From: a bacterium
GTDB taxonomy: Bacteria > UBA8248
DNA length: 64,000 nt
Direction: 5' to 3'
NCBI GenBank assembly: GCA_022828125.1
Contig: JAJEJD010000016.1
Coordinates: 1-64,000 of the forward strand
Part shown: in pieces, positions 48,512 to 51,408 of the stretch
Numbering within the stretch: the stretch's first letter is position 1
Layout: every line of letters begins with the position of its first letter
Program-made: the position numbers and the translations under genes
Notes under the pieces: model-generated
The model's database searches: none
What the model was told of the DNA's origin: nothing
The model's input: the letters and a program-made list of their open reading frames with translations, nothing else

Positions 48512-48780
48512 GGGCGCATTTGTCCGCATTTGCGCTTGGCGGCGAAGTTCCGGCTCGGGTATGGTGTCGCTTCGGAAAGCACTCGGCCCCGAAAAACGAA
48601 TTTCCGAAAAATTCGATAAAATTCGACAAATTTCGATAAATTCACGGGGTTTTTCGATAAATTAAATGAATGATTTTTGAAGGTTCGAACAGACGCCGCC
48701 CATCGCAGCGCAGGGGAATACTGCCATGGCCCGCTGCGCTTGAGATAACGGCGAATGCGCGGAGATGCGGGGAATTGCAC
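48512..48780 (+). repeat. Composite repeat with TCGATAAAT core and GCATTTGC ends, copy B
   Basis: The left end is GCGCATTTGTCCGCATTTGC (48514-48533). The core at 48601-48663 has ATTCGATAAA, TTTCGATAAATT, ACGGGG and TTTTTCGATAAATT. The right end (about 48712-48779) has CTGCCATGGCCCGCTGCGCT and GCGCGGAGATGCGGGGAATTGC. The right part matches copy C (52428-52692, inverted) closely. It ends about 24 bases before the ATG of the DinB-like gene, so it sits over that gene's promoter and ribosome-site region. Confidence 0.75.
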
Positions 48781-48803
48781 GTTCGAGCGGAGGAATCCAT
48801 AAG

Positions 48804-49475
48804 ATGCAGGAACGAGAAAATTCAGCGCGCGCGCTTTTCCCTGAGTTCCGACAAGTCGCTGATTTATATGAGGTAGAGACGGATGGCCTCTCCGAGGCGG
48901 TCTTGCGCAGAACGAGGGAGGAGAAGAGCTGGGGCGCCTGGTCTATCCGCGATCAGGTGAGCCACGTGGCGTCCCTGCCCTACCGGTGGCTGCTGGTCCG
49001 CTGGGGGGCTATCCTCTTCGGGGACGACCTCCCGCGCGATGAGGCGCTCCTCACCCGCTTCGACGGGCGGATGATGAAGGAGGCGCATTGCCCGCAAATT
49101 CAAGACCTTATCGGCGTCATGCGGGACTCGTTCGGCCTCGCCTGGGAGGTGCTGGGAGCGGAGACGAGCGAGTCCATCCGCGACGGGAGAAACATCACCG
49201 AGCGCGTGCCGCACGGCATGAAACGGCCCGGAACCGGCGAGGACGTGCGCAGGTGGCGCGAAAACGTCACCCTGAAGGCCCACCAAACCGGCGTGTGGAT
49301 CGACCCCGAAGATACTGAATTATTTCACTTTAACCTCGAATACACGTTCCGCCACATCCTCTGGGAAGCGTACGCGCACCTCAACACCATCCAGATGCAC
49401 AAGAAAGAGGAAGGCCTGGAGCCGCTCGCCCGGATCCCGCAAGAGGGTTACATCGGCGTGCTGAAATGGGAATAA
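48804..49475 (+). CDS. DinB-fold protein (putative metal-dependent)
   Basis: The 223-residue product looks like a DinB/YfiT-type four-helix bundle: WSIRDQVSHVASLPYRWLLVRW with His near the end of helix 2, and LEYTFRHILWEAYAHLNTIQMHKK near the C-terminus supplying an HxxxxxxxH pair. These three His positions bind a metal in the DinB superfamily, whose members are thiol transferases and related enzymes. The exact substrate is unknown. The ATG at 48804 follows GGAGG by ten bases; an earlier in-frame ATG at 48765 lies inside the repeat. The OsmC-like gene follows 67 bases later, so both probably share a message and perhaps a thiol or redox role. Confidence 0.7.
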   Translation: MQERENSARALFPEFRQVADLYEVETDGLSEAVLRRTREEKSWGAWSIRDQVSHVASLPYRWLLVRWGAILFGDDLPRDEALLTRFDGRMMKEAHCPQIQDLIGVMRDSFGLAWEVLGAETSESIRDGRNITERVPHGMKRPGTGEDVRRWRENVTLKAHQTGVWIDPEDTELFHFNLEYTFRHILWEAYAHLNTIQMHKKEEGLEPLARIPQEGYIGVLKWE

Positions 49476-49542
49476 TACCCACATAATCAATCATTTACGT
49501 GAATGGAACCATTCGCATCCAAACCCTGGAGGACAGACGAAC

Positions 49543-50106
49543 ATGGTGGAGAGCATCAATTACCCCTGGCATGAGAGCACCGTGCCCGGCGAGCGGCCGA
49601 TCGACAAACCCGAACTACCGAAAGACGGTTACGAGATCACCATGCTCGCGGAGACGGAGACGATGGACGACGGGCAGCTCAAAATCGGGCGCTTCCGGCA
49701 TTTCGAGGTGTTCAGCGACGAACCGCCCCGCATCGGTGGGCAGGACAGGTATCCCCAGCCGCTCACGTACATCGCCATGGGCGTCGGTTTCTGACTTCTT
49801 ACCCAGCTTGGGCGGTACGCCCATATGACGAAAACGACCTTCGAGAAAGCCACTTGCCGCGTGGAATTCGATTATTTCCTGAAAGGTTCCGTCCTCAAGG
49901 GCGACGTGAACTCAGGGTGCAGAAGGGTGCGGACGCACTTCAAGGTGGAATCGAGCGAAGCGGAAGAGAAAATCCTGAACATCATCCGGTTGGCGAAACA
50001 AGGCTGCTACGCCGAGCAGATGGTTCAGACGGCGGTGCCGCTCACGAGCACGGTTGAGCTAAACGGCAAAAACCTTGATCTGGAAGGAATTACGGACACG
50101 GATTAA
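49543..50106 (+). CDS. OsmC-like peroxidase with in-frame UGA, candidate selenoprotein
   Basis: Two consecutive open stretches (49543-49794 and 49825-50106) are in the same frame, separated by a single TGA at 49792-49794. Read through, they give one 187-residue OsmC/Ohr-type protein: N-terminal strands (KIGRFRHFEVFSDEPPRIGG), then YIAMGVGF-U-LLTQLGRYAHM, then the C-terminal half with the second conserved cysteine in QGCYAEQMVQTAVPLTSTVELNG. Normal homologues have Cys at the UGA site (GFCLLTQL); it is the peroxidatic residue, so selenocysteine at residue 84 would be catalytic. A SECIS-like hairpin follows (49809-49823). GGAGG precedes the ATG by ten bases. An OsmC-like selenoprotein family is known from marine metagenomes. 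A nonsense mutation or sequence error is the alternative. Confidence 0.8.
49792..49823 (+). promoter_or_regulatory. UGA codon and candidate bacterial SECIS hairpin
   Basis: Starting 14 bases after the TGA, TGGGC (49809-49813) pairs with GCCCA (49819-49823) around the loop GGTAC. The loop opens with GG-U, as in the formate dehydrogenase SECIS, and begins 19 bases after the UGA, within the range described for bacterial elements. The stem is short (five pairs, six if the loop closes further), so support is moderate. Confidence 0.6.
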
Positions 50107-50394: not shown

Positions 50395-51408
50395 ATGGTG
50401 AAACGGTCTCCATTTCCCGTGGGCAAGCTCCCGCCGGACGTGCTGGGCGCTCTGCTCCAGAACACGAGTTCGCACCCGCGTCTCGTAGTGGGTCCACAGG
50501 TTGGAGAGGACGCGGCCGTCATCGACATGGGAGATCGCTATCTCGTCGCAAAATCAGACCCCATCACGTTCGTTGAACGTCATATCGGCCGCTATGCCGT
50601 ACACGTGAACGCGAACGACGTCGCCTGTATGGGCGCAACCCCTCTGTGGTTCCTGATGACGCTTCTCCTGCCCGAAGGACGCACTGACGAGTCGATGGTA
50701 AGCCGCATCTGGCAGGAAGTGGGAGACGCATGCGCCGATTTGGGCATCACCTTGTGCGGCGGGCATACGGAAATCACCTCGGGACTCGAGTTTCCGATTC
50801 TCTCGGGCCACATGCTGGGGGAAGTCTCGAAGGAGAATCTGATTCGCGGCGCCGACGCGCAAGCGGATGATTTTATTCTGGTTACACGTCCTGTACCCGT
50901 CGAGGGAACGGCGATCCTGGCGGATGCGAAATACGATTTCCTGAAAAGCATCATGGATGTCGAGATACTGGAGAATGCGAAAAAATATCTGGAATCTCCC
51001 GGGATCAGCGTGGTGGCGCAAGCTCTGGCGGCGGCCGGAACAGGCCATGTACACGCGATGCACGACCCGACCGAAGGCGGCTTGGCCACCGGCGTTTATG
51101 AAATGGCGGGGGCAGCGGGTCTGGGGGCCATCGTGGAGGAGAGCCGTATCCCCATATCCGTTGAGGGTGGAGAGATTTGTAAAGCGTTGGATATCAACCC
51201 CTTGGGCGTCATTACGTCGGGAGCGCTTTTGCTGGCGGTTCCGGCGGAAGGCGAAGAAACCGTTCGGGAAGCGCTCACGGCGACGGGCGCGATGGGCGTC
51301 CGCATCGGTAAATTCTGCTCGCCCGAATCGGGAGTGATGATCCGGCGCGACGAGAAGATTTTTCCGCTGCAACGCTTTGATTCCGATGAAATCTCAAGAG
51401 TGCTGTGA
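50395..51408 (+). CDS. AIR-synthase-related protein, HypE-like
   Basis: The 337-residue product has the two-domain PurM fold. VVGPQVGEDAAVIDMGDRYLVAKSDPITF and YAVHVNANDVACMGATPLWFLMTLLLPEG form the ATP-binding N-terminal domain; DDFILVTRPVPVEGTAILA and HAMHDPTEGGLATGVYEMAGAA belong to the second. It resembles HypE, which makes the cyanide ligand of hydrogenases, but it ends ISRVL and lacks the C-terminal PRIC cysteine of true HypE, and no other hyp genes are here. It also lacks the N-terminal Cys/Sec-x-x-Lys of SelD. Its substrate is therefore unknown. The ATG at 50395 follows GGTGAG; an upstream in-frame region overlaps the tRNA. The HAD gene follows after seven bases. Confidence 0.75.
   Translation: MVKRSPFPVGKLPPDVLGALLQNTSSHPRLVVGPQVGEDAAVIDMGDRYLVAKSDPITFVERHIGRYAVHVNANDVACMGATPLWFLMTLLLPEGRTDESMVSRIWQEVGDACADLGITLCGGHTEITSGLEFPILSGHMLGEVSKENLIRGADAQADDFILVTRPVPVEGTAILADAKYDFLKSIMDVEILENAKKYLESPGISVVAQALAAAGTGHVHAMHDPTEGGLATGVYEMAGAAGLGAIVEESRIPISVEGGEICKALDINPLGVITSGALLLAVPAEGEETVREALTATGAMGVRIGKFCSPESGVMIRRDEKIFPLQRFDSDEISRVL

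Follow-up and report, generated by a model that had tools for sequence, protein, structure and literature searches.

A predicted OsmC-fold selenoprotein gene of the UxxT family, its SECIS hairpin and the selenocysteine decoding genes of its genome

Gene content of the locus

In the window (the whole stretch of 64,000 nucleotides of contig JAJEJD010000016.1 that was analysed), an OsmC-fold selenoprotein gene is predicted on the forward strand at positions 49543..50106; it encodes 187 residues with a selenocysteine (Sec) at residue 84 and ends with a TAA stop codon. All features described below for this gene are on the same strand. A GGAGG, read from the sequence as a likely ribosome binding site, lies at 49528..49532, 10 bases upstream of the ATG. 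The Sec84 codon is an in-frame UGA at 49792..49794, the sole in-frame TGA of the gene, and corresponds to the first redox position of the OsmC fold. It is followed by a predicted SECIS hairpin, UGGGC-GGUAC-GCCCA (49809..49823), and by the TGC codon of Cys155 (50005..50007), the second conserved redox position, which was invariant in 32 aligned homologues. The initial annotation had proposed that the TGA parts two halves of one OsmC-type protein. Both the frame and the domain across the UGA agree with this, and upon read-through the flanking residues (YIAMGVGF-U-LLTQLGRYA) and the retained QGCYAEQ, which contains Cys155, are as it had described.

Upstream of the selenoprotein gene, the ORF at 48765-49475 had been described as a DinB-fold gene. 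The ORF is real and conserved in the genus, but its match to Pfam DinB_2 (E=0.11) is under the cut-off, and the fold was not confirmed by an AlphaFold2 model that was too poor for this purpose (pLDDT 43.7). Downstream, 50395-51408 encodes a protein of the PurM/HypE/SelD superfamily with AIRS domains, which falls below all equivalog cut-offs and adjoins the selenoprotein gene within the genus. This AIR-synthase-like protein was considered as a candidate SelD and rejected (91.6 bits for a cut-off of 125), the true selD being located elsewhere. A functional link with the neighbours (DinB-like ORF, tRNA-Phe, AIR-synthase-like and HAD genes) was likewise rejected: their synteny with the selenoprotein gene is restricted to the genus, and they were found neither next to the paralogues nor in other phyla. 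The explanation therefore leaves them out.

Assignment to the UxxT family

The Pfam OsmC domain scored 46.7 bits on the read-through protein, 27.4 bits on the part after the TGA alone, and gave no score on the part before it; since the score rises upon read-through, the domain spans the UGA. The NCBIfam model NF041052 (“OsmC-related (seleno)protein”, curated cut-off 95 bits) matched at 162.8 bits (4.5e-48), and the UxxT motif is present as U84-L-L-T87. The 103 open codons that follow the UGA, already counted in the initial annotation, were found as such, but they are weak evidence when taken alone, because in the window (61% GC) 8% of the TGAs have at least 103 open codons after them. The weight of the case rests on homology, codon bias and the hairpin.

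UxxT OsmC-like selenoproteins were first described in 2005, with 3 sequences from the Sargasso Sea (PMC1088965), and again in 2008, from GOS data (PMC2398784), and they appear in reviews of 2022 (PMC9312934) and 2026. A kinship with this family of marine metagenomes had been suggested for the present gene, and the NF041052 score and UxxT motif fit it. In all features open to testing on its sequence, the predicted protein is clearly a member: like the family, it combines an OsmC domain and the UxxT motif with a Sec at the first redox position and a SECIS element directly 3' of the UGA, and no protein feature sets it apart. Whereas the family was initially known from metagenome fragments alone, the present gene belongs to a near-complete genome that has a full set of decoding genes and three paralogues. 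Standard gene calling would split each such gene in two.

Homologues and conservation at the UGA

Search patterns were placed in the N-terminal half of the protein, so that the searches did not select for a TGA. Among the loci retrieved, 111 homologous frames from several phyla were compared, of which 82 are distinct at the site; 108 of the 111 have a TGA there. The other three frames are one true Cys form (L129, from Robiginitomaculum) and two out-of-frame pieces of broken copies. The UGA had been said to stand at the column of the first, peroxidatic Cys; homologues indeed show either Sec or Cys where residue 84 stands, the sole other residue coming from a broken copy, in a piece that is out of frame. 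UxxT and Cys155 are retained in nearly all homologous frames.

The genome itself carries three genes of the family, each with one TGA. The family was found in all 18 genomes of the phylum that were examined, where the 72 matches above the cut-off have one TGA each. Relatives detected in the scan of named genomes belong to Nitrospinota/Tectomicrobia-type MAGs (including isolate UBA8248), betaproteobacteria and SAR202/Dehalococcoidia. Judged by these names, the phylum is probably GTDB UBA8248, and the present bacterium a marine one of Nitrospinota/Tectomicrobia type. In a sample of the class Dehalococcoidia, the family is present in 16 of 294 genomes, nearly always with one TGA. Lower-scoring Cys forms were found in genomes G456 and G590 and in four genomes of the betaproteobacterial sample.

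One genome of the same phylum (G015) shows an unusual expansion, with about 11 OsmC selenoprotein matches above the cut-off, one of them a fragment at a contig end. The Cys homologue of Robiginitomaculum (L129, 4001-4375) is placed by the tree inside the Sec clade, on a long branch. Its gene has no stable hairpin (-3.1 kcal/mol), no SelB above the cut-off was found in its genome, and it is possibly a Sec-to-Cys reversion.

The SECIS hairpin

The hairpin begins after 14 bases 3' of the UGA and has a predicted folding energy of -10.1 kcal/mol; its position and GGUAC apex are those initially claimed. The following bSECIS constraints were used: loop of 3-9 nt, spacing of 16-37 nt, a G within the first two loop positions and MFE <= -7.5. 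Published constraints on bacterial SECIS elements also include an N1-G-[G/U]-N-N2 apex (PMC13188914). The hairpin after the Sec84 codon agrees with all of these, apex included, and hence fits the bacterial SECIS model. As a single sequence, its energy is only mildly better than that of dinucleotide shuffles (z -1.3), so that the comparison across homologues is what counts.

In this comparison, 81 of 82 distinct regions after the UGA satisfied the bSECIS constraints. The codon of Arg91 is CGG in 82 of 82 sequences, while CGG makes up 25% of the Arg codons in the rest of these genes; likewise, Tyr92 is encoded by TAC in 80 of 81 cases, for 51% elsewhere. The second base of codon 90 pairs with the silent third base of Ala93 in all 82 sequences (C-G 66, G-C 11, A-U 4, G-U 1); since the sequences are related, such counts are not independent events, but the types of pair differ between lineages. 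At least five of the six stem pairs are formed in 93% of the observed sequences and in 16% of synonymous codon resamples (highest value 29% in 500 runs), and the mean folding energy is -9.6 for the observed sequences and -5.5 for the resamples. As synonymous resamples fall short of both the observed pairing and the observed energy, a constraint acts on the RNA, beyond that on the protein alone.

Selenocysteine machinery of the genome

The genome assembly (3.92 Mb, 97% complete) was searched for the four components of Sec decoding, as the initial annotation had proposed, and all were present above their curated cut-offs: a tRNA-Sec with anticodon TCA (UCA in RNA; 75.9 bits for a cut-off of 47), selA (575.9 bits), located just 5' of selB (384.5 bits) on one contig, and selD (334.9 bits), which has a UGA of its own at the active-site position (GGUGSK). 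Judged by this gene content, the genome is one that decodes Sec. SelB exceeded the cut-off in 31 of the 41 genomes tested; it was not found above the cut-off in the other 10, which are mostly draft MAGs.

With these genes, the homologues and the hairpin taken together, 49543-50106 is almost certainly a functional gene for a bacterial OsmC-fold selenoprotein, as predicted from its sequence; the candidate proposed by the initial annotation has thus survived the tests that were run. SelB and Sec-tRNA would bind the hairpin just 3' of the UGA and insert Sec at residue 84.

Predicted structure and function

The AlphaFold2 model (pLDDT 89.4) places Sec84 within helix 73-95, and Cys155 where helix 141-154 breaks off before helix 156-164. 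OsmC/Ohr structures rank first in Foldseek searches. The nearest solved structures by sequence are the OsmC-like proteins of PDB entries 3CJE and 2OPL, in which the Sec column holds a Cys; no function is given in these entries, and 2OPL has no second Cys in the alignment. The protein resembles the Ohr/OsmC hydroperoxide reductases (XfOhr, E. coli OsmC) in its fold and its two redox positions, and differs from them by Sec in place of Cys and by the lack of a Glu 10 residues before. By analogy with Ohr/OsmC, the selenol of Sec84 would most likely reduce a hydroperoxide or a similar electrophile and would then be joined to Cys155 in a selenenylsulfide, to be reduced by a cellular thiol. We give even chances to hydroperoxide reduction being the main activity.

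E. coli OsmC has a catalytic Glu49 and a peroxidatic Cys59. The catalytic Glu51 of XfOhr functions with Cys61 (PMC5962072). Counted back from the Cys/Sec column (hhalign aligned E. coli OsmC only near the second Cys, and MAFFT set the first Cys one column off), the position of this Glu, 10 residues before Sec84, is occupied by Leu or Met in 32 of 32 aligned members, and none of them has a Glu at Sec-10 or Sec-9. The label of peroxidase given initially is borne out for the fold and the two redox positions, but the activity itself is made doubtful by the replacement of the Ohr Glu. Arg18 and Arg91 are nearly invariant among the aligned members, the position of the catalytic Arg being different in Ohr and OsmC.

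The selenoprotein may instead have another role, in which Sec84 and Cys155 would serve in thiol-redox chemistry or in the handling of electrophiles, as is perhaps the case for YhfA-type OsmC proteins. In addition to the missing Glu, several residues are invariant instead in the 32 aligned members (Asp59-Glu60, Gly65-Gly66, Pro73 and Tyr76), and the UxxT family is filed under COG1765 (YhfA) in the 2022 review (PMC9312934), the activity of YhfA being itself unknown (PMC5962072). The number of copies, up to about 11 per genome with fragments included, also suggests varied substrates. The fold and the two redox positions nevertheless match those of Ohr/OsmC, and peroxidases commonly use Sec, so that such a role appears plausible at slightly under even chances.

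Other readings of the UGA

Reading of the UGA as Trp or Cys by a near-cognate tRNA, or through a general recoding, would equally leave the frame open. UGA however terminates 33 of the 59 non-overlapping ORFs (>=100 aa) of the window and is thus a normal stop there, as had been stated; in addition, the homologous column has Sec or Cys and never Trp, and a tRNA-Sec and a SECIS element are present. This reading is considered very improbable.

It was also considered that the UGA could be a true stop, by nonsense mutation or in a decayed gene, or a TGC or TGT miscalled during assembly. Apart from the stop codon itself, nothing speaks for this. Opposed to it are the conservation of the TGA at this site, in 108 of the 111 frames and across several phyla, the SECIS constraint and the purifying selection 3' of the UGA, where dN/dS is 0.05-0.11 (five orthologues), a value which indicates that the second half is selected as protein. 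A base error is practically excluded, because the TGA recurs in more than 100 frames, contributed by dozens of genomes that were assembled independently, and the probability left to this group of explanations is negligible. The alternative of two genes, one for an 83-residue protein and another that would start at the in-frame ATG at 49825, is given an equally negligible probability, since the OsmC domain runs across the UGA and the ten codons from the UGA to this ATG are highly conserved both as protein and as RNA.

Further candidate OsmC selenoprotein subfamilies

Besides its three genes of the UxxT family (hereafter family A), the genome has a fourth OsmC gene with a UGA at the first redox position (C29:37485-37979, forward strand; L130:1486-1980), here considered as a candidate subfamily B. 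Its motifs are AGHAGUGLYTLL and CPIHNTL; it scored 51.1 bits with Pfam OsmC and 59.6 with NF041052, under the cut-off of 95. Subfamily B is present in 7 of the 18 genomes of the phylum, always with the UGA, and has a SECIS-like hairpin of its own (CGCUGCU-GGG-AGCAGCG) whose loop starts 17 nt after the UGA. A subfamily C comprises three OsmC genes of relatives with an in-frame UGA (L137, L138 and L139, on G015:C20, G014:C110 and G010:C23), likewise under the NF041052 cut-off. Their motifs are LG(A/S)UM(M/T)(S/G)xVLEF, for instance LG(A/S)UMMSNVLEF, and GCRIHNTL. The hairpin of subfamily C is GUUCUGG-AGUUUUG-CCAGAAC, one member having GUUUUGG/CCAAAAC, which constitutes a compensatory pair.

A tree of 62 OsmC proteins was built with the column of the second Cys dropped and the Sec column kept, Sec being coded as C; as both are invariant, the tree should be unaffected. 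The Sec or Cys state used for counting was taken from the codon at the site or, for L174-L183, from the lack of a TGA in the match. The three Sec groups are separate in this tree, and its best version implies 4 changes; the branches are long and the deep order unsure, but the well-supported branches force at least 2 such changes. Within this clade, Sec was probably acquired by the OsmC fold on several occasions, in separate subfamilies. It appears fairly likely that at least three separate gains occurred (A, B and C), that B and C are undescribed subfamilies with SECIS hairpins of their own, and that some genomes encode about ten OsmC selenoproteins. Within the limits of the literature covered, B and C look undescribed because the table of the 2026 review has a single entry for an OsmC-like selenoprotein, the UxxT form.

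Of more interest than the single gene is this wider pattern of a fold that uses Sec again and again. It points to a lineage in which a single redox fold employs Sec repeatedly and with hardly any exception. Cys forms are nearly absent from family A, and one Cys homologue is placed inside it, which makes the family well suited to ask what Sec contributes to OsmC proteins. In the sample of 274 genomes, the nearest Cys relatives of subfamily B are mostly OsmC domains within open frames of about 400 codons.
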